Part shown: positions 13,472 to 31,551 of the stretch, in pieces
How positions within the stretch are numbered: position 1 is the first letter of the stretch
Layout of the letters: the number at the start of each line of letters is the position of its first letter
Virus record (IMG/VR): IMGVR_UViG_3300030328_002738
Location: 1 to 58,424 of that record
Reading direction: 5' to 3' (one strand)
DNA from: a virus
DNA: 58,424 bases
The notes under the pieces: model-generated
The model's database searches: none
What the model was told of the DNA's origin: nothing
What the model saw: the letters and a program-made list of their open reading frames with translations, nothing else
Translations under genes and position numbers: made by a program

Positions 13472-13538
13472 AGGGGAGGAATTGTAATCCTTCACAAAGT
13501 ATAACAGCTAGTTATTAATTAAATTACTAACCTCCCCT
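13472..13538 (-). ncRNA. G/C-clamped intergenic hairpin (element D)
   Basis: The non-coding gap 13443-13585 holds a nested stem: an 8-bp clamp (13472-13479 with 13531-13538), then GTAAT/ATTAC (13484-13488, 13523-13527), then ATAAC/GTTAT (13501-13505, 13511-13515) with loop AGCTA. AGGTTA (13458-13463) can alternatively pair with TAACCT (13528-13533), competing with the clamp. It lies in the leader of the exonuclease gene. Function is unknown: regulatory leader, terminator or processing site. Confidence 0.5.
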
Positions 13539-17183: not shown

Positions 17184-17286
17184 AGTTTAGTGTTTAATTG
17201 ATTAATAAAAAAGGAAAGAGGGGATAAACTTGGCATTCATCTAAGAGTCGTGACGTACTCTAAGTATACCTGTCTATTGCCCCTCT
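17184..17286 (-). ncRNA. leader RNA, possible H-type pseudoknot (element C)
   Basis: A gap of 106 bases between two leftward genes. Stem 1 is 7 bp: 17280-17286 with 17217-17223 (AGAGGGG/CCCCTCT). Stem 2 is 6 bp: 17225-17230 with 17184-17189. Stem 2 crosses stem 1 and its last strand touches the start codon at 17183. A further hairpin (17241-17248 with 17257-17264, one mismatch) lies in the first loop. If the fold is real, it would hide the start site. Stem 2 is short, so confidence is moderate. Confidence 0.45.
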
Positions 17287-17289
17287 AAC

Positions 17290-17739
17290 CTATAGTTGTG
17301 TAATAAGTTCAATAACTTCATCTACTTGCTTTTTATTTCTTGGCATAAAAAGTACATATTGATGATTATTGTCTTTGAGGTGTTTTTTAAATAGTTTCCA
17401 TCTTAAAGGAAATGATTCATTAGCATAACCTTTGGTTTCTATAATCCATTTACCTTTTGGATCTACAAAATCCGGAGTATAAGTAATTGGCCTTATTTTA
17501 CTCCCTTTATTATAAAGTTTCTTAGCGGTACCTTCATAGCATGCTTGAGGGTACACTAAAGCTTCAAATATAGTAAAAGTTGTCTTTTCATATTCTACAA
17601 GTACTTTAACTTCTTTCAATTTTTTATAACAATATAATTCTAAATTAGATTGAAAATTGTGCCCATCATAAGTACTTTTTTTAGCATTTTTTACTTTCTT
17701 ACGTCCCGGTTTACTTCTAGCTTTCCTCTTCCACACCAT
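17290..17739 (-). CDS. PD-(D/E)XK endonuclease (T7 endonuclease I / DUF1064-like)
   Basis: A 149-residue basic nuclease. After a Lys/Arg-rich N-terminus come SNLELY (E34), YTPDF (D90) and IIETKGY (E101, K103), the E ... D ... ExK order of PD-(D/E)XK enzymes. This is the pattern of small phage resolvase-like and DUF1064 nucleases. A likely role is branched-DNA resolution before packaging, or recombination. Its start lies 23 bases inside the end of the phosphoesterase gene upstream, so the two are coupled. Which DNA structure it cuts cannot be told from sequence. Confidence 0.75.
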   Translation of the reverse strand: MVWKRKARSKPGRKKVKNAKKSTYDGHNFQSNLELYCYKKLKEVKVLVEYEKTTFTIFEALVYPQACYEGTAKKLYNKGSKIRPITYTPDFVDPKGKWIIETKGYANESFPLRWKLFKKHLKDNNHQYVLFMPRNKKQVDEVIELITQL

Positions 17740-18886
17740 AATTCATAACATTTGTCTGAAGGTATCCTTCTAACCCTCTATTCTTACTCCATATAAAAGC
17801 TTGTCCACATCTAAGCGTTCCTACATATCCTTGAGTTTTATGCCAATTATCATTAGCACAAATGGATGGTATAAATCTAACTTTAGTTCCCATATATTCA
17901 TTAAGCATTTCTTTATGTTTATGTCCACAATGAATTTCTCTTACTTTTGCTCGACTCCACATTTCAGGTTGCTCTGTAGCAATTAATAATGGTAACTCTG
18001 CAGATTTTTCTTTATCTCCGTGTGTAAACATAATCATATTAATTCCATATTCATAATATTTACGAGAATCTAATCCGTTATCTATTGTAATGTTTTTATT
18101 GTTATGATACAAAGCATCTAAAACTTCTCCCACATAAAACATGCGTTCAAAGTCATGATTACCTTGTACTACAACAACATCTACTGGTGCAAATTGTGCT
18201 AAATATTCTATAGCTTTAGTAACTAAATGCCAATAACCTCTAAAAGATTGACGCCATCGCATACTATCTTGTTGAGGTGTACCTTTAGTTGTAGCTCTAC
18301 TCATACCTTCTGAATTTAAACCATCATTACCAACCGGTAATAAAAATCTATCTATTTCAAGACCATCTGCTTTTCTATGCAAATCTATAATAGCTTGCAT
18401 ATAATGTTCCTCTATAGCTTCTGGTCCTTCATCAGTAATTTTACCATAATGTATATCTGGTAATGATATTTCATAAAGTACTGGATCTTTTGGTTTAGTA
18501 TATTTAATCTTTTTTACTTTAGCGGATCTTGTACGTATATAATCTAATAACTCTTCTTTAACTTGAGGCTGTTCATGCCATTGATTATGTGTTACTATAC
18601 TATAACGTTGTTCACCGTTAAAATTCTGCCAAAATTTAACAGACTTTACATCTGCCATTGTTAAACCGTTATCTAATAAGTGTTTTGTGAAAGCTTGGCT
18701 TTGGCTAAGTTCATGGCCATTATCATTATTCATTCTTTCTTGTACCCACTCTTCAGAAGTTACTAGTTTTTTACAATCTTTAATAATTGCTGAATCTACT
18801 TCCCATTTTTTTGCTAAAAATTCAACTCCTTTTTTTAAATATCCTTTCCGTGTTCTTAATTTTTCAATAATTTCATCTCTTGTCAT
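17717..18886 (-). CDS. calcineurin-like metallophosphoesterase
   Basis: A 389-residue protein. All blocks of the two-metal calcineurin-like fold are visible: DIH (D144, H146), GND (186-188), GNHD (242-245), THGD (H289) and GHKH (321-324). The first ~45 residues form a helical segment resembling a small helix-turn-helix domain. Related phage proteins are encoded beside replication genes and may act on nucleic acid ends or nucleotides; the substrate is not known. Here it sits between the primase (4-base overlap) and a PD-(D/E)XK nuclease, consistent with DNA end processing, perhaps in an SbcD-like way but without an SbcC partner in view. Confidence 0.85.
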   Translation of the reverse strand: MTRDEIIEKLRTRKGYLKKGVEFLAKKWEVDSAIIKDCKKLVTSEEWVQERMNNDNGHELSQSQAFTKHLLDNGLTMADVKSVKFWQNFNGEQRYSIVTHNQWHEQPQVKEELLDYIRTRSAKVKKIKYTKPKDPVLYEISLPDIHYGKITDEGPEAIEEHYMQAIIDLHRKADGLEIDRFLLPVGNDGLNSEGMSRATTKGTPQQDSMRWRQSFRGYWHLVTKAIEYLAQFAPVDVVVVQGNHDFERMFYVGEVLDALYHNNKNITIDNGLDSRKYYEYGINMIMFTHGDKEKSAELPLLIATEQPEMWSRAKVREIHCGHKHKEMLNEYMGTKVRFIPSICANDNWHKTQGYVGTLRCGQAFIWSKNRGLEGYLQTNVMNYGVEEES

Positions 18887-19875
18887 TCTAATATAATTTT
18901 AAGTTCATTAAAACTGTTTTCCTTAGATATTAAATCAGATGGATCTTTTGATTCAAATCCTCTAGGTAAACAGATGTTATTAAAACCATATAAGTCGCAG
19001 ATTTTCTTAGCCATTGTTTGGCCAGGATTATCTTCTTTATTAAAATCGTTATCGTATAAAATTTCTATTGTTTTGAATCTTTTTTTAAGCTCACTTATTA
19101 AACTCTTTTCAGGTATTTGCATTTCACTTTGCATAGCTATAGCATTATAGCCGGCAGCATGTAAACACATAACATCTTTGAGTGATGAAGTAATGATAAG
19201 TCTTTCCCCAGTTTTTGGGAGTTGGTTGAAGCCTTGTATATCTAACTTTGTTGTATTGCTTAACCACTTATTTTTATCTTCATAAGGAGAATAGATTTTA
19301 TATCGATTTTTAAACCTAAAGGCGTAAGTAATTGATTTACAAGTAAATCTATTATTATTCACCCAAAAATGACTTATAGGTTCTACTGCAAACTTAATTA
19401 GTATTTTCTTACTAACCAAGTATTTAGACCAAAATTTCGCATCTTCTTTATTCCAAGGTCGGCTTTTCTTTCTTATAAGTACTGGTTTTTTATCAAATTT
19501 TGGTACTTTATTTTGTCTATAAGCCATAATACCCATAGTAAATTGTTTTCCAGCCTTATTAGGAGCTAACCCTAAATTGAAGTCACAGTCTATTATTCGC
19601 AGAGCATCTATGAAAGTGCAATTATATTTATATTTAACATAATTAAAACAATCAAAAACATGTTCAGAATTTCCAAAATCTTTATATAATAATTTACCAT
19701 TGTATGGAGTTATATAAACAGTAGGAGAGTTGTCTTGTCTAAGATCGCTATTAAATTTTTTACCTAGCGTCTTAAAAGTTGGACAATAATACACAAAAAT
19801 GTCATACTCAGTAATTTTACTAAGTATGACATCAGTGTGTAAATGATCATTGCTATCTCTGCTTTTTATAGCCAT
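18883..19875 (-). CDS. DnaG-like primase (TOPRIM)
   Basis: About 330 residues, making RNA primers at the fork. The start is placed at 19875, where the ATG overlaps the SSB stop as TAATG; an in-frame ATG 57 bases upstream (19932) is possible but lies inside the SSB gene. The N-terminal part (FNSDLRQD ... KDFG ... DCFNYV) resembles the DnaG zinc-domain fold but lacks the zinc cysteines. The TOPRIM part has IITSSLKD (D234) and LYDNDF (D275, D277). The usual catalytic glutamate of TOPRIM is replaced by serine (TSSLKD). The stop overlaps the phosphoesterase start by 4 bases. The DnaB-like helicase encoded upstream is its expected partner. Confidence 0.82.
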   Translation of the reverse strand: MAIKSRDSNDHLHTDVILSKITEYDIFVYYCPTFKTLGKKFNSDLRQDNSPTVYITPYNGKLLYKDFGNSEHVFDCFNYVKYKYNCTFIDALRIIDCDFNLGLAPNKAGKQFTMGIMAYRQNKVPKFDKKPVLIRKKSRPWNKEDAKFWSKYLVSKKILIKFAVEPISHFWVNNNRFTCKSITYAFRFKNRYKIYSPYEDKNKWLSNTTKLDIQGFNQLPKTGERLIITSSLKDVMCLHAAGYNAIAMQSEMQIPEKSLISELKKRFKTIEILYDNDFNKEDNPGQTMAKKICDLYGFNNICLPRGFESKDPSDLISKENSFNELKIILE

Positions 19876-20657
19876 TAGAATGGAAGGTCTTCTTCGGCTG
19901 AGCCATTTGTAGCCACACTTTCTGTTGTCCAATCTTCATTTTCCCCAATAGTATCTGGAGTAACTAAAGTAGCTGTTGCAACATGTGTTCCCCATTTAAG
20001 ATCCGCATTAAAGTCTGCATTAAATGATCCATAGTCATCATTAAGCGCTTTAATAAATAAATCGTCACGCTGAGGTTTTACTCTTCCAAAATATTTAGTA
20101 TATACTTGTTGATATTTATCATCTTTAACTCCAATAAGCACTCTAACTTGATTTGTTTTTAAACTTTCTACTAAAGCTTTAATTTCTGCTAAATCTCCAT
20201 TAGCAATATTTGACATAGTATCAAAATAAACTTCATCTCCTGATGCTACATTAGCCCAAGCTTTAACAAAATTAATAAGAGTTTCTTCCCCGGTAAAAGC
20301 TTTTCTTTGTCCTTCTGATTTCCACCACTCATATGTAGGCGAGTCTTCAGACCATGTTGATTGTCCAATATTATTCATCCATTGGAATTTACCATTTTGA
20401 GATACTTTAGGTTTATTTTGCATTAATATTTCTAATTTAAAATTACCGTCAGCATTACTTAGCCAGAATACAACTTTATTGTATGATTCTCCACTAAATT
20501 CTACTGAGTAATTAGGTTCTTGTTTAACATTAATATCCATTGCATGTAATTCTGCCATTGTTGGATTTACTGCTTTAACAGTAACGTTTGTTAAACCTGA
20601 GAAAGTTTTAATTCCTCCTACTACTTCTTCTGTGCTTGCATTACTTTGTATTGCCAT
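19875..20657 (-). CDS. SSB-like single-stranded DNA-binding protein
   Basis: A 260-residue protein that ends in EEDLPF, the acidic tip by which SSB proteins recruit replication partners. The central region has alternating hydrophobic and polar residues expected of an OB fold, with many aromatic residues that could stack on DNA (for example QNGKFQWMNN). It is longer than bacterial SSB (about 170 residues). The stop overlaps the primase start (TAATG), so binding protein and primase are co-translated. The leader TAAATTAAAAAATCAATAAA is typical of Bacteroidota starts. Confidence 0.75.
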   Translation of the reverse strand: MAIQSNASTEEVVGGIKTFSGLTNVTVKAVNPTMAELHAMDINVKQEPNYSVEFSGESYNKVVFWLSNADGNFKLEILMQNKPKVSQNGKFQWMNNIGQSTWSEDSPTYEWWKSEGQRKAFTGEETLINFVKAWANVASGDEVYFDTMSNIANGDLAEIKALVESLKTNQVRVLIGVKDDKYQQVYTKYFGRVKPQRDDLFIKALNDDYGSFNADFNADLKWGTHVATATLVTPDTIGENEDWTTESVATNGSAEEDLPF

Positions 20658-20677
20658 AATTTTATTGATTTTTTAAT

Positions 20678-21160
20678 TTATAATTCGAACGTATTATCGT
20701 CCATTTCTATTTCGTCTTCATTTGTATCAGATGCAGCTTTCAATAAAGTTTCTTCTGGAGTTTCATATTCCGTAGGACTCAATATATCTAATACAGCTGC
20801 TTCTGTATCTTTTAACTCAGTTTTAACTTGTTCAACTGTCTCAATAGCATCGTCTATAGCTTGCTCTAAAGTTACTTGATTAGGATCAGGCTCTTCTCTA
20901 TCTATAACAGTACCAGTTTCTTTTATTCTATCTTCTGTTATATCATCTACAAAACTAAAAGATAAAGCTTTTTTTCTACTAGGTCTTCTACCTTTAAGAA
21001 ATGGATGTTTAAACATTTCATCTACTTCCCAAGGTTTAATGCTATATTTAATAGCCATCTCTGCTTTGCTAATTCCATCTTTAAGATCTTGATCTATCAT
21101 GGAAACAGTAATTTGTTCCGGTGTTTCTCCGGCTTCTACATTTGTTCGTGTGTTAATCAT
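20678..21160 (-). CDS. hypothetical acidic protein with HTH-like N-terminus, 160 aa
   Basis: I do not recognise the family. Residues 20-60 (MIDQDLKDGISKAEMAIKY onward) read like a small helix-turn-helix, followed by the basic patch GRRPSRKKA. From residue 85 on the protein is strongly acidic and helical. A DNA- or protein-binding adaptor in replication or recombination is plausible, since it lies between the SSB-like gene and the Sak4-like ATPase gene with gaps of 20 and 10 bases. No catalytic motif is visible. Confidence 0.6.
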   Translation of the reverse strand: MINTRTNVEAGETPEQITVSMIDQDLKDGISKAEMAIKYSIKPWEVDEMFKHPFLKGRRPSRKKALSFSFVDDITEDRIKETGTVIDREEPDPNQVTLEQAIDDAIETVEQVKTELKDTEAAVLDILSPTEYETPEETLLKAASDTNEDEIEMDDNTFEL

Positions 21161-21170
21161 TTTTTTAATT

Positions 21171-21878
21171 TTAATCTATGAATATTTCTGACCATTTCAT
21201 AGGGATGGTCTTGCCCTTTAAGTGCCCACATCTAGATCCAGCAGTTATATCATCGAGGGAATCAAAAGAAACCATAGTCTCATCTCCGTCGCGGTAAATA
21301 TAACCAACTGCATCCGCATTAGCACAAGTAATTTGCTTAATTTTACCGGTTAAATCAAGGTCCTTAACAGCAACCTCTTTACCTTTCTTTTCAAGCATTT
21401 TATCTTTTAAATGTCCAACTAAAATAATATGATCCGCTAGTTTATTCAATTTATCTATCCATTCTTTATAAGCCATCCTTAAATAAAGATAACCTGCGCC
21501 ATTAGGCAATGATAGTACTGATGCACCAGGGTTTTTAGTATCAAAGTTTTTACCCATAGGAGTTCTCATATAAATTTGTTTAGCATATCCTTCACACCAT
21601 TCTTCTAATTTAGATATAGTGTCAATAGCTATATATTTATATGGACGCCCTTCTTTCATAATTGCTGAACCAATAGCTTGTAAATCTTTCAGACTATGTG
21701 CTTTAACTTTTAAAGCATCAATCATATCTGAGCCATCTTCTAAATCTATTATTAAACAATCATCTAACTGTGATAATACTGTAGTCTTACCTATCTTAGG
21801 TGGACCATATATTATCATATTCTTAGGCGATTTACGGCTCGCCTTTACCTTTGTTTTTGGTAATTCCATAATTTCCAT
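21171..21878 (-). CDS. Sak4-like RecA-fold ATPase
   Basis: A 235-residue P-loop ATPase with Walker A GPPKIGKTT (25-33), an acidic DLEDGSD strand after it, and Walker B-like YIAIDTISKLEEW. Size and motifs fit the phage Sak4/AAA_24 group, which promotes single-strand annealing and recombination together with SSB. The SSB-like gene two genes downstream supports this. The N-terminus (PKTKVKASRKSPKN) is basic. A replication-clamp or helicase-loader role cannot be excluded. Confidence 0.78.
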   Translation of the reverse strand: MEIMELPKTKVKASRKSPKNMIIYGPPKIGKTTVLSQLDDCLIIDLEDGSDMIDALKVKAHSLKDLQAIGSAIMKEGRPYKYIAIDTISKLEEWCEGYAKQIYMRTPMGKNFDTKNPGASVLSLPNGAGYLYLRMAYKEWIDKLNKLADHIILVGHLKDKMLEKKGKEVAVKDLDLTGKIKQITCANADAVGYIYRDGDETMVSFDSLDDITAGSRCGHLKGKTIPMKWSEIFID

Positions 21879-21882
21879 ATTA

Positions 21883-22044
21883 TTATTTTTTAGTTTTTAA
21901 TTTAGATCTTAGCGTATTTCTTCTAGACAACAATTGTGAAACTTTATCTTCATCATTTTTGAAGCGTTTCATCCTTTTATCTATTTGATTTATTTCGTTT
22001 AAGACTGCTAATTTGATCTTGTTCCTCCCGTTTCTTTTGCTCAT
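21883..22044 (-). CDS. small basic protein, 53 aa
   Basis: A short reading frame starting with MSKRNGRNKIK and ending in LRSKLKTKK. It is very basic and predicted helical. Its ATG has a good A/T leader (AAATATAAATAATT) like neighbouring genes. It overlaps the next small gene (21977-22135) by 68 bases in another frame, so one of the two may not be expressed. It ends 4 bases before the Sak4-like gene starts. No function can be assigned. Confidence 0.5.
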   Translation of the reverse strand: MSKRNGRNKIKLAVLNEINQIDKRMKRFKNDEDKVSQLLSRRNTLRSKLKTKK

Positions 22045-22135
22045 AATTATTTATATTTTTAATTAATTTTTCATTTTGAGTTAATTCCCTTTTGAATATC
22101 TTAAGTATTCTAGATTTCATTATTTCTCTAAACAT
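21977..22135 (-). CDS. small charged protein, 52 aa
   Basis: A short reading frame whose ATG overlaps the stop of the DnaB-like helicase gene (TAATG), the coupling seen throughout this genome. The product (MFREIMKSRILK ...) is helical and rich in Lys, Glu and Gln. It could be a helicase accessory factor, but this rests on position alone. It overlaps the 53-residue frame downstream by 68 bases. Confidence 0.5.
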   Translation of the reverse strand: MFREIMKSRILKIFKRELTQNEKLIKNINNYEQKKREEQDQISSLKRNKSNR

Positions 22136-23088
22136 TATTTTGCTCTTTCGTTAATAGTAAATGTTGACATCTCCGCTTCATATGGTATCATACCTAATAA
22201 ACCATCTCTATTCTTTTCTACATGTACTGCTAATAGTTTAATTGGATCAGCTCCACAATATAAATCTGTAATACCATACAAATCATGAGGTCTTTGTAAC
22301 ATCATAACAACATGTGCGTCCTGTCCAATACTATCACCGCCAAACAAATCTGTCAGCAATGGTTGATATTGTGCTTTAGCACGATGTTCTTGTTCTATGT
22401 TACGATTTAACTGAGATAATAATATGTTTATAGTTCCCATTTTAGCTTGGAGCCACATACATCCTTTAGATACTTCGTTAAGTTTTTGTAACTCATGTTC
22501 CTTTTCACTTAAGATCAGTCTAGAGTGATCAAAAACATTAACAATAGTATGGTCAGGTTTCTTATTTGTTATTTCAACATTAGCATTTTTAACAAATTCC
22601 ATATCTCTAGGAATATTATTAAAATATATTGGATAGTGAGCATATTTTAACACTTCTTTTTTAAATGCTTCATATGCTTCTCTTTCCAATTTACGTTCAA
22701 CAGATAATAATTCACTTACCTGTTTATTAGTTCCTTTAGCGCCCGCTCGCATTATTTGCTGATGCCCCGGCATTTCAAAACTCCAATATAGTACAAGTAA
22801 TTTCTTGTTTCTATTGTTATCTAATAAATCAAATATAAGTTGATTACTAAAAGCTGATTTACCTACACCTGGACGACCAGCTATTACATACATCTTACCT
22901 GGTTGTAAACCACCTAATAAGTTTTTGTTTAACCGCGTCCATTTAGTAGGAAATACTTGTCTTTGCCCTTTAATGCCACTCTCCACCTGGTAGAGAGAAG
23001 CACTAATTGCTTTATTAATACTTTTGAATCCACTATCCTTAAAGGGATCTTGTAATTCTTTTGGTAGTTGTTCTTCCGTCATTTTCAT
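22135..23088 (-). CDS. DnaB-like replicative helicase
   Basis: A 317-residue RecA-fold helicase that unwinds DNA at the fork. Walker A is GRPGVGKS (71-78), followed by LVLYWSFEMPGHQQ, typical of the DnaB H1a region. Later come NVFDHSRLI (Walker B position), LLSQLNRNIEQ and FGGDSIGQDAHVVMML, which match DnaB motifs H3 and H4. The protein lacks the N-terminal primase-interaction domain of full DnaB (about 450 residues), like many phage helicases. Its start overlaps the 181-residue gene upstream by 50 bases, and the primase is encoded downstream in the same operon. Confidence 0.87.
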   Translation of the reverse strand: MKMTEEQLPKELQDPFKDSGFKSINKAISASLYQVESGIKGQRQVFPTKWTRLNKNLLGGLQPGKMYVIAGRPGVGKSAFSNQLIFDLLDNNRNKKLLVLYWSFEMPGHQQIMRAGAKGTNKQVSELLSVERKLEREAYEAFKKEVLKYAHYPIYFNNIPRDMEFVKNANVEITNKKPDHTIVNVFDHSRLILSEKEHELQKLNEVSKGCMWLQAKMGTINILLSQLNRNIEQEHRAKAQYQPLLTDLFGGDSIGQDAHVVMMLQRPHDLYGITDLYCGADPIKLLAVHVEKNRDGLLGMIPYEAEMSTFTINERAK

Positions 23089-23584
23089 TTAAGTTTTCAT
23101 ACTTTTCCCAAGTATGGTTATTAATCCAAGTTTCTAAATTCTGCATATAACCTAAGCTATCCTCTTGTACTTTTAATTGTACTCTTAAAGCTTTGATTAT
23201 TTTATTGTGTAAATGTAATTTTCTACCAACAACACCCTTATACCTTTTTCTAGCTTTATCATTAGTTTTAGCTTTAGGATCTGCAGCGCAAAGAACTCTT
23301 ACACTTGTTTTAGTATGTACTCTATTAGGATATACTGATATTAATTCTTCAAACATTGCATCAAAATTATTTGTGAATAAAGATTTAAATTTATTTGTGA
23401 CTACTAGCGTATTTGCTGTCCAGTCCTCTATATATTCTTTATCTTCTAAATTTTTCCAATCTATATTAAGTTTAACATCTTTTAAATAAGAATAACCTTT
23501 TCTAAGTACTAAATATAATCCTATAAACTCATCTGGAGATAAGTCATTAGTCTTTAATAGTTCTAAATCTATTTCTATTGTCAT
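23039..23584 (-). CDS. hypothetical protein upstream of the helicase, possible loader
   Basis: A 181-residue protein without a motif I can name. The N-terminal half is acidic and helical, the C-terminal half basic (PKAKTNDKARKRYKGVVGRK). It ends 50 bases inside the DnaB-like helicase gene, so the two are tightly coupled. This position is often held by helicase loaders or replication initiation factors, but no AAA+ motif is present here. The short leader AAAATATATAAA precedes the ATG. Confidence 0.6.
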   Translation of the reverse strand: MTIEIDLELLKTNDLSPDEFIGLYLVLRKGYSYLKDVKLNIDWKNLEDKEYIEDWTANTLVVTNKFKSLFTNNFDAMFEELISVYPNRVHTKTSVRVLCAADPKAKTNDKARKRYKGVVGRKLHLHNKIIKALRVQLKVQEDSLGYMQNLETWINNHTWEKYENLNENDGRTTTKRITRSL

Positions 23585-23594
23585 TTTATATATT

Positions 23595-24758
23595 TTAAAT
23601 TATCCAATTTACATTATTCAGAGATCTGGTCGCATTCTTTAACCATTTCTCTTCTTGAGAATCTTTTACATATAAAATGTAAATCTCTCCTATTTTATCT
23701 TCTTGAAATCTAATTAGTCTTCCTACACGCTGTATCATAGATAGAGCTTTACTAGTAATCCCACATATAATACCCATATTAGCATCTGGTATATCTAAAC
23801 CTTGATTAAGAGCTTTAGTTGAACATAAAACATTTATAGCTCCTGTTTTAAAATCTTCTAAAGCTTTTTCTCTTTGTTTTTTAGTTTTCTTAGAATGATA
23901 AGCAGCAGATAATGGGTCAACAGATGCACATAGTTCATCTGTAAAATCATTAGCCCCACTAAATGCTAATATTTTACTACCCATATTTTCAAACACTAAG
24001 TTTTGAAATACAGCTACTTTATTAGATGCAAAATCTACTACTTTTTTACGATCTCTCATCGCTTTATAAAATAGTACTGCTGATTTCTTATCTGCAGGGT
24101 GTGCATTTTTATCTGCTAATAATCTCTTAGCTTCATCAAATGCATCAAATTGCCCAAGTTGATATTTATAATATACAAATGAATTGTTTATCTTTTTATA
24201 TTCATCTTTTTCAGCTGGAGTTAAACTCAAAGCTTTACAATATATATTATATGGAGCTACTATACCTTTGTCTACGCACTGATCTAAAGTGATGCTATAA
24301 ACAGTAGGAGCTAAATTATTTAATAACTCTCTATATTCTTGCTCTTCAGGTAATGTAGCAGTCATGCATAATAACTTATCATAAGTATTATTTTCAAAGA
24401 ACTTGCGGTATTGAGGACTTAAACCTAAATGAACCTCATCACATAGTACTATACTATAATGATTACCTATAAGTTTATATGCGCTTTGATAACAAAGAAC
24501 CTCAACGTTATCTGTGGAGACGCCCCATTTATCAAACTCTTCTATAAACTGATCTTGTAATTGTACAGTAGGTACAAGGATTAAAGCATTACCACCATAT
24601 TTAAGTGCATATTCTATTGCTAATACACCACATCTAGATTTACCAAAACCTGTACCTGCTATTATACTACCAATGTAACCATCAGCTGCCCAATTATTAA
24701 GGGCTTTCTTTTGCTCGACATCTCTAATATCATTTATTTGACTCACAATACTTTCCAT
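23595..24758 (-). CDS. SF2 DEAD/DEVH-box helicase
   Basis: A 387-residue superfamily 2 helicase. Motif I is GTGFGKS (35-41), motif II is DEVH (107-110), motif III is MTATLP, and the second RecA domain has LCSTKALNQGLDIP (motif V) and QRVGRLIR (motif VI). It is compact, with no extra nuclease domain, and resembles UvsW/RadD-type phage helicases that remodel forks or R-loops. It overlaps the winged-helix gene upstream by 16 bases and precedes the replicative helicase region, so it works in replication or recombination-dependent DNA synthesis. Confidence 0.88.
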   Translation of the reverse strand: MESIVSQINDIRDVEQKKALNNWAADGYIGSIIAGTGFGKSRCGVLAIEYALKYGGNALILVPTVQLQDQFIEEFDKWGVSTDNVEVLCYQSAYKLIGNHYSIVLCDEVHLGLSPQYRKFFENNTYDKLLCMTATLPEEQEYRELLNNLAPTVYSITLDQCVDKGIVAPYNIYCKALSLTPAEKDEYKKINNSFVYYKYQLGQFDAFDEAKRLLADKNAHPADKKSAVLFYKAMRDRKKVVDFASNKVAVFQNLVFENMGSKILAFSGANDFTDELCASVDPLSAAYHSKKTKKQREKALEDFKTGAINVLCSTKALNQGLDIPDANMGIICGITSKALSMIQRVGRLIRFQEDKIGEIYILYVKDSQEEKWLKNATRSLNNVNWII

Positions 24759-24997
24759 AAAGTAACTGTCCTATTAGTGTCGTTATCATAAGTTGTACCA
24801 TCAGCTGTAACCATACCTAGTCCTACTAATTCAGTTATTCGCCCTGTTACTCTATTTATATCCCAACCTAAAGCTTTAGCTATCATTCTATTTGTAGCTG
24901 AACCTTTTATTAGGAGCATGTCATAAACTGTTTTTCTTTTACCGTTTATAGTTTTCTTTAACTTTTTAAGGGAGTCAACCTGTGTTTGTCTAATCAT
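24743..24997 (-). CDS. winged helix-turn-helix protein, 84 aa
   Basis: A compact MarR-like winged helix. KRKTVYDMLLIKGSATNRMI gives helices 1 and 2, AKALGWDINRVTGRITEL the recognition region, and GMVTADGTTYDNDTNRTVTLWKV the wing. Such proteins bind double-stranded DNA as regulators or replication accessory factors. It overlaps the SF2 helicase gene downstream by 16 bases and the gene upstream by 8, so it is embedded in the replication operon. The target site is unknown. Confidence 0.7.
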   Translation of the reverse strand: MIRQTQVDSLKKLKKTINGKRKTVYDMLLIKGSATNRMIAKALGWDINRVTGRITELVGLGMVTADGTTYDNDTNRTVTLWKVL

Positions 24998-25259
24998 TTT
25001 TATTCTTTTTTAATTTATACTTTGTCATGTCATTATGAATCTGCAGTTGTTTAGGAGTAGGTAAAGGAATATAATCTTCTGGTTTATCAAAAAATCCACT
25101 GTATCCTGTTTGTCCTTGCCAAAACCTTTTTGTCTGCTCTTCTGTTTTACCACTATATTTAAAAAATCCATCAAATTCTACCACTCTCTCCTTCATTATC
25201 TCATCTATTCTGGCATTTTGTTTTGCCTCTTCTATTAAGTATTTAGTTTCTTCTTTCAT
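24990..25259 (-). CDS. hypothetical protein, 89 aa
   Basis: A soluble protein with charged N- and C-terminal helices around an aromatic/Gly segment (WQGTGYSGFF-like: RFWQGQTGYSGFFDKPEDY). No known motif. Its start overlaps the stop of the 56-residue gene upstream (ATGA, 4 bases) and its end overlaps the winged-helix gene by 8 bases, so all three are co-translated. Confidence 0.6.
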   Translation of the reverse strand: MKEETKYLIEEAKQNARIDEIMKERVVEFDGFFKYSGKTEEQTKRFWQGQTGYSGFFDKPEDYIPLPTPKQLQIHNDMTKYKLKKNKND

Positions 25260-25426
25260 ATCTTATATTTTTTCTTAAGCTCATTTCTTTTTTTAATTAA
25301 ATCTGATTTCTTAGCCCTAGGAGCTTTAAACATAGGGTTAATAGATTCTGTTACTACATTCTTTTTCATTCTAGATATTGTACCTTCTAACTCACGTACA
25401 ATTTCTTTTGCTTTTTCTATTGTCAT
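25256..25426 (-). CDS. small basic helical protein, 56 aa
   Basis: A reading frame of 56 codons (MTIEKAKEIVRELEGTISRM ... KKKYKI) with a coiled-coil-like first half and very basic second half. It is preceded by AAAATAAAAAATT and overlaps the next gene by 4 bases (ATGA), both signs of a real gene. The ATG lies 16 bases after the end of a pseudoknot-forming intergenic element. Function is unknown; a nucleic-acid-binding accessory role would fit its charge. Confidence 0.65.
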   Translation of the reverse strand: MTIEKAKEIVRELEGTISRMKKNVVTESINPMFKAPRAKKSDLIKKRNELKKKYKI

Positions 25427-25442
25427 AATTTTTTATTTTAAA

Positions 25443-25527
25443 AATACTCAAGGGTGGACAAGAGTATTAACGTGGTTGTGGATTAGTGACTACTTCGTGC
25501 AGTTCTATTTCCTTTATGCCCACCCTT
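25443..25527 (-). ncRNA. intergenic RNA with perfect H-type pseudoknot (element E)
   Basis: Read leftward, the 8-base arm 25520-25527 (AAGGGTGG on this strand) pairs perfectly with 25450-25457. That second arm lies in the 12-base loop of a perfect 7-bp hairpin (25462-25468 with 25443-25449). The order of strands is S1a-S2a-S1b-S2b, an H-type pseudoknot with loops of 51, 4 and 0 bases. It ends 16 bases before the ATG at 25426. A leader regulating the small-protein/winged-helix/SF2 helicase unit is the simplest reading. Confidence 0.6.
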
Positions 25528-25548
25528 TCGTATATACTTGGGTATAAA

Positions 25549-25630
25549 ATAAGAGAGAGTCTCTCGGAGACTGCATGCTCTTGTGAAATTAGAAGCCTTA
25601 AGGACTTACACGCACCTTTCTCTCTCTTAT
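25549..25630 (-). ncRNA. long hairpin after the polymerase gene
   Basis: A perfect 11-bp stem (25549-25559 with 25620-25630, ATAAGAGAGAG/CTCTCTCTTAT) encloses 60 bases that contain smaller hairpins (GTCTC-TCG-GAGAC at 25559-25571) and the palindromes GCATGC and CCTTAAGG. A 5-bp hairpin (25533-25537 with 25542-25546) flanks it. It lies between the DNA polymerase stop (25705) and the pseudoknot at 25443-25527, so the 278-base gap is almost fully structured. It may be a processing site or part of one larger RNA. Confidence 0.5.
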
Positions 25631-25704
25631 CTTATTCAGTATATTTAAGGCAAACATTTAATATTAAGGATGTCTCTTAAACACCCAGTTAGATTAAACC
25701 TTAT

Positions 25705-27594
25705 TTACTTTTCCCAACAATCACTTACTGATACTTCAGCTTTTAATAAGCCATTTGTTACTATTTCTAATGCAGCCTCTTCCATTATTGCTTGCATATC
25801 TCTTGTCCACTCATTTAAATATTCATTGTGGCAAATAGTATCTATCTGATCATGTACAGTCATTACTAATTTAACTGGTGCATTACGACTTTGAATATAT
25901 GTTCGCATTAATACTAACGCACGTTTAGTCATATCAGCACTAGCTCCTTGTATAGGAGTATTTTTAGATGCTCTCTCAATACTACCAAGCTCCATTGAAG
26001 ATGATTTATTGTCCCATATTTTAGGATACCAATTAGTAAACCATCTCTTCCTATTGTACGGAGGAAATGTTTTAATGTATCCATATTTTTTACCAAAGTT
26101 TCCTAGTTTATCTAAGAATCCTTTAATAGATGGGAAAGCTTCAAAATATTTTTCAATAAGAACTTTAGCATCATCGATATTAATATTAAGGGTATCAGCA
26201 AGCTTATTAGGGCCCATGCCATAAGCAAGCCCAAAATTAATTGTTTTAACATTTGTTCTCAATTTTTTATGTGAAGGACAATTGCATTTAGCTTTTCTTT
26301 TAAAATATGCGCAATTATTTTCTCCACTTGTTAGCCATTGCTCTCCATATACTAATTCAGCACATGTAGAATGCAAGTCTTGCTCTTCTTCTAAAGCTTT
26401 TAACCATACAGGATCTTTAGAACCAAATGCAATAACATTTAATTCTTGTGAACTGTAATCAGCACTAACAAAACTCCATCCTTCAGGAGCTATAAAACAA
26501 TTTCTAAAACTATTATCTGCAGGTATTTGTTGCATATTAGGTTTACTACTACTAACTCTACCTGTATCTAATATTTGATGAAAACTTGTATGTATTTTAT
26601 TATCCCCTGATAAATTCTTAAAGAATGCATCACCATATGACGTACATAATTTCATAGCTTCTTTATATTTTACATATTTATCTATCAAAGGATATTTAAA
26701 TCTGTATTTATACATAGCTTTACCATTTACATTATCTAATTTAGGTATAAGACATTGAAACACTTCTAATACCTGTTTAGGTGATGTCCATTTAATATTT
26801 ATATCTCTTAATTCTTCAACAGGAGTAAACATATCCGCTTGTATATATTTAGCCACAAACTTTTGTAATCTTTTATCCTGTTTTATCATTAGGTCTAAAC
26901 CTGTTAATAATGAATCAGCTTTATCTGTATTTAAATCTTCTAACTCTTTCCACCTCTCCGTATCTAAATCTAATCCATTGTACTCCATATCTGCAAATGA
27001 TGATACTACTTCGTTTTCTAATTGTACAACATTTTCTAACTTATACTTTTGTATAGTTGGTAGTTGTAAATCTTTTATTTTACATAAGTATTCTACATCT
27101 TTTGCACCATAGATTATTTGATCATCTGTAAATGGTTGTCCTGTTAAACCTATAAATAAATTCCTAACCTCTTTATTTAATTCAACATTTAAATACCTTT
27201 TACATAAATCTTTAAGTCCATATCCTAGACTTTTTCCACAGCTTATTACAAGTTCAGTTAAAAATGTGTCATAAATACCTTCACAGGTAATATTAGCCCA
27301 TCTTTTTATAAACTTATAATCAAACTTTGCATTATGAAAGATTTTAATAATATTTTTATTTTCTAATACATCTCTCAATGGCTCAATGCTTACAAATCTT
27401 GTATCTATAATATATTGATTGTCAGCATCACCAATTTGAAACATTATCATCTTTTTACATGTAAAATCAAATCCTTCTGTTTCTGTGTCAACTCCTAAAA
27501 CCTTCTTGTCTGTACAATAAATAACAGCGTCATCTATTGTACAAGACTGAAAGTTAGAGTTAAAACTCTGTGTGTTGCTTACAAAATATATCAT
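25705..27594 (-). CDS. family A DNA polymerase with 3'-5' exonuclease
   Basis: A 629-residue replicative polymerase. The N-terminal DEDDy exonuclease has DTE (D36, E38), HNAKFD (H87-D92) and YGAKD (Y162, D166). Polymerase motif A is SADYSSQEL (D379), motif B is RTNVKTINFGLAYG (R446 to G459) and motif C is VHDQ (H581, D582), where most family members have VHDE. A Cys/His-rich insert between motifs A and B (C428, C437, C439, H442) could bind zinc. There is no 5'-3' nuclease domain; a separate flap nuclease gene supplies it. The ATG follows the previous stop as TAATATG. Confidence 0.93.
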   Translation of the reverse strand: MIYFVSNTQSFNSNFQSCTIDDAVIYCTDKKVLGVDTETEGFDFTCKKMIMFQIGDADNQYIIDTRFVSIEPLRDVLENKNIIKIFHNAKFDYKFIKRWANITCEGIYDTFLTELVISCGKSLGYGLKDLCKRYLNVELNKEVRNLFIGLTGQPFTDDQIIYGAKDVEYLCKIKDLQLPTIQKYKLENVVQLENEVVSSFADMEYNGLDLDTERWKELEDLNTDKADSLLTGLDLMIKQDKRLQKFVAKYIQADMFTPVEELRDINIKWTSPKQVLEVFQCLIPKLDNVNGKAMYKYRFKYPLIDKYVKYKEAMKLCTSYGDAFFKNLSGDNKIHTSFHQILDTGRVSSSKPNMQQIPADNSFRNCFIAPEGWSFVSADYSSQELNVIAFGSKDPVWLKALEEEQDLHSTCAELVYGEQWLTSGENNCAYFKRKAKCNCPSHKKLRTNVKTINFGLAYGMGPNKLADTLNINIDDAKVLIEKYFEAFPSIKGFLDKLGNFGKKYGYIKTFPPYNRKRWFTNWYPKIWDNKSSSMELGSIERASKNTPIQGASADMTKRALVLMRTYIQSRNAPVKLVMTVHDQIDTICHNEYLNEWTRDMQAIMEEAALEIVTNGLLKAEVSVSDCWEK

Positions 27595-27595
27595 A

Positions 27596-27835
27596 TTAGT
27601 AAGCTATTTCTTGTGGTTCTCTATCATATTGAGTCTGTACATGTTCTTCGTACTGCTCTAATAAATTGTTGTCATCTACATATTTAACTACACTTTTAGC
27701 GAAAGATTTAACATAAGTTTTACCTTCGAAATTAAAGCTTGTTGAATCTGTTAAGACACATTTAATGTACAGTTGTTTGAATCTTTTATAAGAATCATCC
27801 ATTACCATACTATAAATCCATTTCATATTTCCCAT
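27596..27835 (-). CDS. hypothetical protein, 79 aa, co-translated with DNA polymerase
   Basis: A small protein (MGNMKWIYSM ... EPQEIAY) with no known motif. The start is placed at 27835, after the typical leader AATTAAACAAAAAACG; a longer frame to 27901 would run through a strong hairpin and is rejected. It ends 1 base before the polymerase ATG (TAATATG junction), so it may be a polymerase accessory factor. Upstream lie a pseudoknot-forming leader and a good promoter. Confidence 0.6.
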   Translation of the reverse strand: MGNMKWIYSMVMDDSYKRFKQLYIKCVLTDSTSFNFEGKTYVKSFAKSVVKYVDDNNLLEQYEEHVQTQYDREPQEIAY

Positions 27836-27853
27836 CGTTTTTTGTTTAATTAA

Positions 27854-27920
27854 TACTTGTTTCTTTATTATTTTGGCAAAAAAAGAGAGACACTCCATCA
27901 CAAGTATCTCTCTTTTTGCC
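27854..27920 (-). ncRNA. leader hairpin/pseudoknot before the polymerase operon
   Basis: Read leftward, a 14-bp stem (27907-27920 with 27875-27890, two A bulged) has a 16-base loop. Seven loop bases (27900-27906, TACTTGT on this strand) pair perfectly with 27854-27860. This gives H-type pseudoknot topology, ending 18 bases before the ATG at 27835. The second stem strand ends TCTCTCTTTTTTTGCC, so the hairpin could also act as a terminator or attenuator between the promoter at 28041-28072 and the polymerase genes. Confidence 0.6.
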
Positions 27921-28040
27921 TATCAAATAAATTGATTTTAAAGTCTTATCTGACCATTGGTTTCGATTAAAGTCATGATTATCAGTCTCTTAGAAGGTTG
28001 TATAAACATTTCTTTTATATCTTTGTAAATAATTAGATTA

Positions 28041-28072
28041 CAAATATAATAAAAAGAAGTACATTATACAAA
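28041..28072 (-). promoter_or_regulatory. leftward Bacteroidetes-type promoter
   Basis: On the minus strand, TTTG (28069-28072) is followed after 20 bases by TATATTTG (28041-28048), matching the -33 TTTG / -7 TAnnTTTG consensus of Bacteroidota sigma-ABfr. It lies in a non-coding gap and would drive the 79-residue gene and the DNA polymerase gene, after a 120-base leader that holds the 27854-27920 pseudoknot. Confidence 0.65.
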
Positions 28073-28121
28073 CAATATACGACTTTTTATTACATTCTAA
28101 AAGCAATTATTATAATGATTA

Positions 28122-28754
28122 TTAATACATTGTTTCTACTTCATCTACTTTTACACCTGTGTTAACTTTTACTGTTGATTGTGTAGTAGTATCTCCAGCT
28201 AAAAATGTGTGTTCAGGATTTTGATCTTCTGGTAATAGATCTACATAAGAATTCATAAATATATTATGACCTTTATGTAATATATAATCTCCACCTTTAC
28301 CTGCTCTTTTAGCTTGTGTCTCAACTACATCTAAACCTTGTGCATCAGCATACTTTTGTTGTGACGCAGTTGGTTCTGTAGACTCAACTATTCTAACTCT
28401 AAAGTTTAAATTATTAAATACTGGATTTAATATATTTAGATCTAGCATTTCACATTCTCTACCATTAGCCTTTTCACCTACATACCAGTCTCCATCATCT
28501 CCAAAATTTACACCAAATATATCTGATGCATCTGCTATCTCTGCAGTTGCCCAACCTCTTCTAGCTCCTGAACTAAATCTAGTGTCAGTAGAGTTTAATA
28601 CTGTTAATGCAGACATTGGTCTATCTTTGGCTACTACTTTTTCAGCAAATTCTAATTGAATTTTATCTGTTGATGTTTTGTATGCTTTAGTTAATAAGCA
28701 TTCTCCTACTTGCAGACTATTTAATGAGCCTGTGTTTAATTGATTGTTTTCCAT
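28122..28754 (-). CDS. hypothetical protein, 210 aa
   Basis: I do not recognise the family. It is an acidic soluble protein with mixed alpha/beta character. The segment DTRFSSGARRGWATAE may bind a nucleic acid or nucleotide, but no catalytic motif is evident. The leader AATTAAAATCAATTTAAAAAC precedes the ATG. It is transcribed leftward ahead of the promoter gap at 27921-28121, so it may end one early transcript before the polymerase unit begins. Confidence 0.6.
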   Translation of the reverse strand: MENNQLNTGSLNSLQVGECLLTKAYKTSTDKIQLEFAEKVVAKDRPMSALTVLNSTDTRFSSGARRGWATAEIADASDIFGVNFGDDGDWYVGEKANGRECEMLDLNILNPVFNNLNFRVRIVESTEPTASQQKYADAQGLDVVETQAKRAGKGGDYILHKGHNIFMNSYVDLLPEDQNPEHTFLAGDTTTQSTVKVNTGVKVDEVETMY

Positions 28755-28773
28755 GTTTTTAAATTGATTTTAA

Positions 28774-29025
28774 TTAATAATTATTTATTCTAAATTCTTC
28801 GAACTCTTTATTACTGACTGCTGTTGTGTCAACAGGATTTTCCCAGTAAAATAGCTCTGGATGTATATCTTTCATATTGTGAGTGCAAACTGTACATTCA
28901 GCAATAAAATGAATAGCATCCATCTTATCTTCAAAGGTTTTAATTTTAGAAGAAGTTACATCTTCTTTTTTACAGTCGTGATAACCTTTTGAGTCACAAC
29001 CATAAATGATCTTGATTTCATTCAT
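28774..29025 (-). CDS. hypothetical Cys-containing protein, 83 aa
   Basis: A small acidic protein (MNEIKIIYGCDSKGYHD...) with Cys at IYGCDSK, YHDCKK, AECTVC and a His in CTHNM, which could bind a metal. The ATG at 29025 is preferred over an upstream TTG two codons earlier. It is followed 19 bases later by the 210-residue gene. Family and function are unknown. Confidence 0.55.
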   Translation of the reverse strand: MNEIKIIYGCDSKGYHDCKKEDVTSSKIKTFEDKMDAIHFIAECTVCTHNMKDIHPELFYWENPVDTTAVSNKEFEEFRINNY

Positions 29026-29048
29026 AGGCAAGTTTTTAGTTAAGTTAT

Positions 29049-29210
29049 TTATTTGGTTGATTGTATTATTGCAAATAGTATAAAGAATATTAAAGATATT
29101 CCTATTATTATACCTATTACATTTAAAATATTGTTAAATCTGCTTGATTCAGGAGGATGAGGCACATGATATACCTCTGTATCTCCTTTATATTTTCTAT
29201 TGTGCTCCAT
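29049..29210 (-). CDS. single-span membrane protein, 53 aa
   Basis: A reading frame of 53 codons beginning MEHNRKYKGD. About 29 charged or polar N-terminal residues are followed by one hydrophobic helix (NVIGIIIGISLIFFILFAII, residues 30-49) and a QSTK tail. It overlaps the upstream coiled-coil gene by 14 bases. It would sit in the inner membrane with its N-terminus probably in the cytoplasm. An early-gene membrane protein could be a superinfection-exclusion or host-takeover factor, but nothing proves this. Confidence 0.65.
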   Translation of the reverse strand: MEHNRKYKGDTEVYHVPHPPESSRFNNILNVIGIIIGISLIFFILFAIIQSTK

Positions 29211-29535
29211 CTTGCTCTATTATTAATTTAGTCTTCATAAATTTAATTACTCTTCTTAAATCACGTAGTAATGAATTTACGCTTTCATAATCTTTTTCAT
29301 TTTCTCTCTTCTTTTGAATAGTCAATACATCTTTATTCATTTTTATTATTAACTCATGAGCTTCATTTATTACACTTATCATAAAAGGTTTAAATACCTT
29401 TTCTGCTAAAGATTGTCTAGCTACTTCTTTATGATAAACTAAGTCTGAAGTTAATTTGTCCACTTGATGTTTTAATTTAGTTATTTCTAAATTCTTTTGT
29501 AAGATCTTTGGATCTAGTTCAATATTTGTTTCCAT
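29197..29535 (-). CDS. coiled-coil protein, 112 aa
   Basis: A largely helical protein (LEITKLKHQVDKLTSDL, residues 16-32, reads as coiled coil) with many Lys and Glu. No known motif. Its ATG is preceded by the leader TAACTAAACACAAATAAAGT and by a long non-coding, highly structured region (29566-29995). The gene overlaps the small membrane protein gene downstream by 14 bases. Confidence 0.6.
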   Translation of the reverse strand: METNIELDPKILQKNLEITKLKHQVDKLTSDLVYHKEVARQSLAEKVFKPFMISVINEAHELIIKMNKDVLTIQKKRENEKDYESVNSLLRDLRRVIKFMKTKLIIEQDGAQ

Positions 29536-29565
29536 ACTTTATTTGTGTTTAGTTAATATTTAATT

Positions 29566-29995
29566 GTGCTCACTCATCATTTTCACGGGCTTGTGACCGT
29601 CCTTGGCTGATTTAAGCACGAATAAGGGAATTATCAATTCCAAAGGTGTAACTATCCGCTTGCGCGATTCTCTTAACACTTACTATACATCTCCCAATGT
29701 ATTCTTATAATACTTTATCCACTTGGACGTCCATATTACATTAAATAGTTTACTACAAACTACAGTATATTACCATCTGTCTTAAGCGAGACTTCATAGA
29801 TAATTTAGTGTCGTACTAACAATAGATTTAATTGTTATTATTATACCCTTTTGATGTATCCAACTGTTAAGTCAGTGAAGCTATAACATTTGTTATAACC
29901 TATTCGTCTGGATGACTATACATCACTGTCTACTCTTGCTAGCACAAGTATTAACGACAGTTCTTATTCTGAGGAGTCTTGCAATACTCCCTACG
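29566..29995 (-). ncRNA. candidate structured non-coding RNA, about 430 nt
   Basis: A gap of 460 bases between two leftward genes without a plausible reading frame. It contains many local stems: GTGCT/AGCAC (29566-29570, 29615-29619) around ACGG/CCGT; GGAATT/AATTCC (29627-29641); CGC-GCAA-GCG with a GNRA tetraloop when read leftward (29657-29666); AACAAT/ATTGTT (near 29818-29836); TATAACA/TGTTATA (29882-29897); CTTG/CAAG (near 29935-29948); GGAGT/ACTCC (near 29973-29990). This density is higher than in ordinary AT-rich spacers. Size and setting recall the large ornate phage RNAs as a class, but I cannot match it to any. Confidence 0.45.
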
Positions 29996-30250
29996 CTATG
30001 TTGTTTTCCATGATCCTAATCCTTGCATAAATGTTTTAACAAATTCTGTGTCTTCACATTCAATCATTGCAAGTTGTATTTTATTTATTACAGATTCACG
30101 TATTTCTTTATCTTTTATAGAATATCTTATTTGTCTTCCAAGTGATCTAACTACAGCATTTGTTGGAATCCAATAATAATCTAATTGTTCTATTTCTTCT
30201 TTAGACATATCTTTTAATATGTCATCTGTTATTATCGCATTTGATTTCAT
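29996..30250 (-). CDS. hypothetical protein, 84 aa
   Basis: A small helical, acidic protein (MKSNAIITDDILKDMSKEEI ...). No motif recognised. The leader AAACATCAATAATT precedes the ATG, and a 167-base structured RNA region lies upstream. It is followed by the long non-coding region 29566-29995, so it may be the last coding part of a short early transcript. Confidence 0.55.
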   Translation of the reverse strand: MKSNAIITDDILKDMSKEEIEQLDYYWIPTNAVVRSLGRQIRYSIKDKEIRESVINKIQLAMIECEDTEFVKTFMQGLGSWKTT

Positions 30251-30291
30251 AATTATTGATGTTTAATTAATGTTTAGGTTAATAAATAACA

Positions 30292-30418
30292 ATATCAAGA
30301 TACTGACTAATGCCAATATCTTGATATGATTATTCCAATGTAATGTCACAAGTTATTACGACTAAGTAAGAATGCCTGAATAACATTACATTGTTCTCTA
30401 AAAACTAAAACTCAGGCA
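30292..30418 (-). ncRNA. intergenic RNA: H-type pseudoknot plus hairpin
   Basis: Read leftward: S1a 30412-30418, S2a 30383-30393, S1b 30373-30379, S2b 30336-30346. S1 is a perfect 7-bp stem (TGCCTGA/TCAGGCA) and S2 a perfect 11-bp stem (CAATGTAATGT/ACATTACATTG). They cross, giving a classical H-type pseudoknot with loops of 18, 3 and 26 bases. A perfect 11-bp hairpin (30317-30327 with 30292-30302, loop 14) follows. The element begins right after the stop codon at 30419 and ends 41 bases before the ATG at 30250. It is the clearest structured RNA in the window. Confidence 0.68.
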
Positions 30419-30667: not shown

Positions 30668-30715
30668 GATTGTGTTATATTATGTTATGTTGATAATTAG
30701 ATTGATTGTCAAATT

Positions 30716-30784
30716 GTGGGAAAAAGTGGTGAATGTGATGTGATAGACACACTCACGAACAGTGTAGTTGTCCTCCCCACCCAC
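30716..30784 (-). ncRNA. G/C-clamped intergenic element (A)
   Basis: In the 187-base gap 30668-30854, GTGGG (30716-30720) can pair with CCCAC (30776-30780 or 30780-30784), with TGTG/CACA and CACT/AGTG hairpins inside. To its right, TTGAACAAC (30789-30797) and GTTGTCAA (30802-30809) form an 8-bp stem with one bulge and loop TAAT. The clamp is only 5 bp. It is listed because its geometry repeats that of elements B-E. Confidence 0.35.
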
Positions 30785-30832
30785 TGAATTGAACAACTAA
30801 TGTTGTCAATCCCCACCTATATAGAATAAAGA

Positions 30833-30850
30833 AAGGGGATTACTCCCCTT
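30833..30850 (-). terminator. terminator after the first leftward gene
   Basis: A 6-bp AAGGGG/CCCCTT stem (30833-30838 with 30845-30850, loop of 6) begins 4 bases after the stop codon of the 71-residue gene. Read leftward it runs into CCCCTTTCTTTATTC, a U-rich tail. It would end or attenuate the first early transcript. Confidence 0.6.
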
Positions 30851-30854
30851 ATCT

Positions 30855-31202: not shown

Positions 31203-31236
31203 TTTTGTTTTTTGTAAGAAAGTTTTTATATCTTTG
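31203..31236 (+). promoter_or_regulatory. rightward promoter P1
   Basis: TTTTG (31203-31207), 21 bases, then TATCTTTG (31229-31236): a good Bacteroidetes -33/-7 pair. The 13-base string TTTTATATCTTTG is shared exactly with P2. Transcription would start near 31240-31243, at the beginning of the structured region 31240-31500. Confidence 0.72.
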
Positions 31237-31239
31237 CAG

Positions 31240-31500
31240 TCCAACATTATTCATCCCCTGGTAACCATAAACGGGATTAGACATCGGATTGTAGTCTCAA
31301 ATAGAGATAGAGTTTTCTCCGGTAGTTGGAAAAGAACGAGAGTATAAGTTCTAGTTAGGATACAATTAGCACACAGGTACGTGCGGTGAATTAACATCAG
31401 TTTTAGTATCCTTTGGTCTCTACTTTATTAAGAGAAGCACTGCTAGATACGAAATCCAAGTTTGAAATAGAATCTCTAAGGGGGTGAACTATATTCTTTT
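31240..31500 (+). ncRNA. candidate structured RNA or long structured 5' leader
   Basis: The 340 bases between P1 and the first rightward gene hold no plausible reading frame. Stems seen: TCCAAC/GTTGGA (31240-31245, 31325-31330), AGAAC/GTTCT (31333-31337, 31348-31352), AGGATAC/GTATCCT (31357-31363, 31406-31412, perfect, enclosing GCAC/GTGC), and TCTCT/AGAGA (31417-31421, 31431-31435). The first stem begins at the expected transcript start. This looks like a defined RNA of about 260 nt, with P2 placed just after it to transcribe the coding operon. A long regulatory leader is the alternative. Confidence 0.5.
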
Positions 31501-31518
31501 TAAAAATATACAAAAATA

Positions 31519-31551
31519 TTTGGTAGTATAAAAAAATATTTTATATCTTTG
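31519..31551 (+). promoter_or_regulatory. rightward promoter P2 for the structural module
   Basis: TTTG (31519-31522), 21 bases, then TATCTTTG (31544-31551), identical in spacing to P1. The start of transcription would be about 20 bases upstream of the GroES-like gene ATG (31578). This is the likely main promoter of the rightward operon. Confidence 0.78.

Follow-up and report, generated by a model that had tools for sequence, protein, structure and literature searches.

Among the systems closest to the one described here is the early region of phage T7, in which the RNase III processing sites are hairpins located between the genes of a polycistronic early transcript. Modular behavior is also part of this picture, as the intergenic stem-loops of T4-type phages, i.e., the PeSL cassettes, are stem-loops gained and lost as modules at gene junctions. 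Moreover, the leader of the T4 gene 32 mRNA is a pseudoknot that serves as a translational operator (PMC535899, PMC3014915), and HDV-like theta ribozymes from gut phages are linked to tRNA-based recoding by the title of the paper on them (PMC10879173). Regarding crAss-like phages, full-text literature searches returned few papers that pair them with ribozymes, and intercistronic RNA families were described in none of these.

The DNA considered here, referred to as the window, covers 58,424 bases of an IMG/VR virus record that has 59,633 in all, and its polymerase finds its best matches, at about 30% identity, among human-gut crAss-like phages. The original prediction proposed that four gaps of the leftward early module (17184–17286, 25443–25527, 27854–27920, and 30336–30418) hold a single family of H-type pseudoknots under selection for RNA structure. 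The gaps are indeed non-coding, each lies between a stop codon and the next leftward start, and the complementary segments are present where they had been placed. The four gaps, however, share neither sequence nor a conserved topology. Selection on structure holds for the gap at 25443–25527, and the single pseudoknot family is not supported. Instead, the spacers of this ocean crAss-like virus hold small folded RNAs, the fold of which is kept while the letters change, and these elements are nested hairpins belonging to at least two undescribed families, named class A and class D, rather than to one family of pseudoknots. Of the four gaps, only that at 25427–25704 yields a real, widespread element. 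The features needed to follow the argument are:

13472–13538, minus strand: class D RNA element (53 distinct viral copies, six covarying P1 pairs)
17217–17286, minus strand: nested long hairpin of the first gap, 17184–17286 (z −4.3)
25444–25533, minus strand: class A RNA element of the gap 25443–25527 (covariance model match, covariation, minimum-energy fold)
25530–25533/25444–25447, minus strand: class A outer helix, P0
25517–25527/25450–25460, minus strand: class A main helix, P1, equal to stem S1 of the original prediction
25464–25471, minus strand: class A invariant GUUAAUAC
25544–25635, minus strand: class H long hairpin, between classes B and A (fold z −3.4)
25646–25703, minus strand: class B RNA element, directly 3' of the polymerase stop codon (about 10 post-polymerase relatives)
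27875–27920, minus strand: intrinsic-terminator-like hairpin with a U-run, in the gap 27854–27920 (z −8.2)
28041–28071, minus strand: promoter-like site of Bacteroidota type, TTG-N20-TATATTTG, lying upstream of the terminator hairpin (pattern scan)
29567–29618, minus strand: predicted twister-P1 ribozyme (Rfam RF03160, 55.3 bits)
29619–29992, minus strand: ornate non-coding RNA, the 3' end of which abuts the twister (six-sequence alignment)
30336–30418, minus strand: gap holding an inverted repeat of 14 bp, CAATGTAATGTTAT/GTGACATTACATTG, crossed by a stem of 7–9 bp (0/500 shuffles)

Like the T4 gene 32 leader, class A is a folded phage RNA lying close to where a replication-module gene begins; it differs from that operator in that it has no conserved pseudoknot, precedes many unrelated genes, and is not tied to a repressor gene. 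Classes A and D are set apart from the T7 RNase III sites by invariant loops 20–30 nt long, and processing is a role that they may have; unlike the PeSL cassettes, they have conserved internal loops, and no promoter was found in either class. As with the theta ribozymes (PMC10879173), a predicted ribozyme is present in a phage genome, but it belongs to another ribozyme class and no tRNA was found in the window. The expectation that no described RNA family would account for the gaps held: Rfam 15, searched with the window and seven relatives at gathering and at permissive thresholds, has no family for them and gave nothing, or chance-level matches, for classes A, B, H, and D.

The class A motif is a stem of 7–19 bp capped by an invariant loop, UAAA-GGC..GCC-..GUUAAUAC, in which the asymmetric loop UAAA // GUUAAUACNNU is conserved around a small GGC/GCC hairpin. 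It is an imperfect nested hairpin, in which P0 is followed by a small internal loop rich in purines, often GAA/GGA, and then by the freely varying P1; in the window the loop between P0 and P1 is GA/GA, the apical hairpin is termed P3, and the minimum-energy fold consists of the same nested P0, P1, and P3 (z −3.9). A pattern built on the loop alone (TAAAGGC....TTGCC..GTTRATAC) matched 85 viral loci and 14 bacterial ones, and a stem directly outside the loop, in the same register, is present in 84 of the 85 viral matches (a few with a short bulge) and in none of the 14 bacterial ones. Some of the 85 viral loci repeat contigs of the first search, and the distinct sequences number 49. Across 36 distinct sequences, stem and apical hairpin are paired in 94.2% of cells. 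Double changes occupy 76 stem cells against 21.6 expected by shuffling, a value reached by none of 500 shuffles, and this signal collapses once the register slides by one column. G-U pairs mostly have the G on the 5' side and the U on the 3' side, a strand bias suggesting that it is the sense RNA, and not the DNA, that folds. The covariance model (R2) recovers one class A copy per locus, in the window at 25451–25526 (minus strand, 51.7 bits), and BLAST against 50,697 named phages gave chance matches only.

For this gap, a pseudoknot would call for compensatory changes in both predicted stems. They are present in S1, as the double changes above attest, and absent from S2 (AAUACUC/GAGUAUU), the crossing stem in which AAUAC of the loop would pair with GUAUU past the stem. 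The GUA of the 3' half of S2 is missing from 23 of the 49 distinct members, and pairing between loop and tail is near the shuffled level (5.04 vs 4.6 bp). Where present, the tail GUA forms a nested pairing with a UAC in the 5' flank, and the internal loop that this pairing spans, commonly GAA/GGA, is nearly symmetric. Total pairing reaches 135 bp for P0, compared with 123 when partners are exchanged (50/5000) and with 114 in the case of S2; in a head-to-head comparison of 21 class A sequences P0 shows six double changes and S2 none, and a second covariation test of P0 gave 7/500. Such comparisons argue strongly that class A is without a conserved S2 pseudoknot, and, on moderate evidence, the 3' segment of S2 fits better as the nested outer helix. 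An HDV-like nesting of the same gap was rejected, since both the strand order and the nested P0 contradict it. A role as exonuclease-resistant RNA, which would call for a ring-like pseudoknot able to stop such a nuclease, may be considered as well; in class A, no conserved pseudoknot was seen.

Class A is read in the sense of its flanking genes. The stop codon ends 5–17 nt ahead of the stem in the 20 copies measured, and an AUG follows in 47 of the 49 distinct copies, 46 times at 9–36 nt after the stem and once at 61. The flanking genes include those for DNA polymerase, GroEL, exonuclease VIII, and primase, as well as small unknown ORFs, and this diversity indicates a general leader element rather than the operator of one gene. 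Among 80 viral loci with a polymerase at 70–88% identity and a conserved gene order, the junction after the polymerase differs by whole modules even between close relatives: it is reduced to 9–25 nt in L003, L004, and L009, it holds one element, class A, in L002 and L007, and two or three elements in L023 and L029 as well as in the window and L070. Further, different structured-looking elements occur in the post-polymerase gaps of L005, L020, L062, L071, and L073, and others at such junctions in L041 (20411–20610) and in L072 (13161–13260, with a tRNA T-arm-like GGTTTGAATCC). Neighboring elements were also considered as hatchet-like and hammerhead-like, readings that were discarded because they reflect letter resemblance only and have no Rfam support.

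As for the crossing stems in general, the lengths of two stems that cross, each 6 bp or longer, were summed and compared with 500 dinucleotide shuffles per gap. An excess is found at 25443, 27854, and 30336 (0/500 each) and not at 17184 (69/500), and where it is found it derives mostly from one long ordinary hairpin per gap. With the main hairpin fixed and the crossing stem alone set against 2000 shuffles (raw counts, uncorrected for how gaps and ends were chosen), the stem of 17184 is at chance, being reached by 1277 shuffles, and the others are mildly unusual: 11/2000 for 25443, with the gap ends trimmed to the stem, 39/2000 for 27854, and 29–99/2000 for 30336. Compared by sequence, the relatives reject the crossing stem in 25443 and 27854 and lend no support to that of 17184.

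The hairpin at 17217–17286 has a closing stem, AGAGGGG/CCCCUCU, followed by inner stems. A short-motif scan yielded one true relative, the diverged L376, which keeps the nested fold with consistent changes and has the proposed S2 altered on one side. In the gap 27854–27920, the hairpin is kept with changed letters in seven relatives (L002, L003, L005, L006, and L008–L010). The S2b side of the proposed crossing stem, ACAAGUA, lies in a conserved translation leader kept in most of these seven, and its loop partner, UACUUGU, occurs in none of them. GC-containing, followed by a U-run, and kept in relatives, this hairpin qualifies as an intrinsic terminator. The adjoining stretch (27920–28092) is about 82% identical in six relatives. 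A rightward promoter-like site (27998–28025, plus strand) was also noted within the leftward module, near the leftward one at 28041–28071. Homologues of the gap 30336–30418, sought through the gene at 29996–30250, amounted to one near-identical contig, 100% identical there and thus uninformative for covariation; a pseudoknot in this gap is possible, and its predicted stems could form one.

Class D shares the stop-to-start niche of class A and is found at three different junctions. It is built of P1 (8 bp), P2 (GUAAU/AUUAC, invariant across copies), a P3 hairpin (AUAAC/GUUAU), and a conserved ACUUUGUG. Class B, which often sits ahead of class A, has a closing stem that varies around a conserved 3' strand, an apical hairpin (GGGUGU/ACAUCC), and a conserved UUAAUAUUAAAUGUUUG; its single-sequence fold is weak (z −1.8), and it was tested less rigorously than classes A and D. 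Class H, with the outer stem AUAAGAUAAGAGAGAG/CUCUCUCUUAUUUUAU, appears among the relatives only in the near-identical L070. The string GUUA(A)UACUU(U)GUG is shared by class D, some members of class A, and the ornate RNA (29536–29995), in which it lies near the 5' end, and may be a common recognition motif.

The segment at 29567–29618 matches twister-P1 (RF03160) with an E value of 6e-11 to 1e-9, and like the members of that family it has the twister core and helices, both kept in relatives with compensatory changes in the helices; unlike them, it scores 55.3 bits, below the gathering score of 67.2, and forms the 3' terminus of a roughly 400-nt RNA not described before. By core and helices, it qualifies as a predicted twister-P1 ribozyme. 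In an alignment of six sequences, the ornate RNA and ribozyme together have 126 predicted pairs, 47 of them with double changes. This unit (29567–29992, minus strand) was seen to be conserved in L009, L017, L018, L023, L066, and L073. On the plus strand, the divergent region 31213–31494 (about 280 nt) is conserved in about 30 relatives, with 22 of 53 pairs covarying and a stronger fold signal than on the minus strand; promoter-like sites of the form TTG-N-TATCTTTG were noted on the plus strand at 31205–31236 and 31520–31551. No conserved fold was found at 30668–30854 (minus strand), although an 87-nt stretch of it is conserved in more than 15 relatives; that stretch ends in the leader of the next gene.

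How these elements work can be approached only tentatively, and the reading that we favor, at a little short of an even chance, is that they are intercistronic sites in a polycistronic early mRNA, read at their conserved loop. The leftward module carries separate, modular structured RNAs in its stop-to-start spacers, and these would act within the polycistronic early mRNA. A host or phage factor, either an RNase or an RNA-binding protein, may read the conserved loop presented on a generic stem, and this recognition could set how the message of the next gene is processed, how stable it is, or how it is translated. For class A, the structures, the covariation, the fixed position, the sense orientation, and the modular gain and loss are all observed. 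Against this reading, the elements are dispensable in close relatives and the P0 covariation is modest (50/5000 and 7/500). Moreover, the same junctions are taken up by elements of class A, B, or D or by one-off hairpins, a pattern that would also suit RNA modules that are selfish or neutral.

Leaders that work as translational operators or much like riboswitches, binding a single phage protein or metabolite in the manner of the T4 gene 32 leader, would suit a conserved loop placed shortly upstream of an AUG in replication modules. Yet the gene downstream of class A varies, so that such an operator would have to be a global regulator, and we regard this explanation as unlikely. A new kind of small self-cleaving ribozyme, with class A, class D, or both cutting the polycistronic mRNA alongside twister-P1, is distinctly improbable: it is favored by the small size of the elements and their generic stems that surround an invariant loop, by a twister within this block of genes, and by precise modular presence or absence, but neither class matches an Rfam ribozyme, and class A is without a conserved pseudoknot or multi-helix junction. 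We give about as little weight, and if anything slightly less, to intrinsic transcription terminators with elaborate loops. This explanation holds for the gap 27854–27920 and is consistent with the U-rich tracts that follow many class D copies past the resolvase gene, a junction occupied by plain terminators in L024, L050, L068, and L075. U-runs after the 3' arm of class A are few, however, and long ones mostly missing, its tails being mostly A-rich or AU-rich and running into the next leader; the class D copy of the window has no U-run, and a terminator does not need a conserved loop.

One family of H-type pseudoknots in the four gaps is now very improbable: crossing complementarity exists and three of the four gaps beat shuffles on summed stems, but S2 of class A is devoid of double changes and its 3' half is missing from roughly half of the distinct members, the terminator at 27854 has lost its partner in relatives, 17184 is at chance, and nothing in sequence or conserved topology unites the gaps. 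DNA-level elements, such as cruciforms or recombination or replication sites, would agree with modular gain and loss at gene junctions, but the strand-specific G-U bias and fixed sense orientation leave them hardly credible.

This case illustrates that spotting pseudoknots in a single sequence can mislead, as a crossing stem may be the alternative pairing of a segment that is more likely kept nested. To return to the intercistronic sites, a bolder extension, which we consider improbable, is that these phages partition their polycistronic early mRNA by means of exchangeable intercistronic RNAs, several of which (classes A, B, and D) would be new elements for self-cleavage or protein-guided cleavage, beside a twister-terminated ornate RNA. 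Few descriptions exist of structured RNAs from crAss-like phages. Classes A and D covary decisively, have no Rfam entry, and recur across different uncultured phages, and they offer concrete targets of 55–90 nt for probing, in vitro cleavage, and binding tests.
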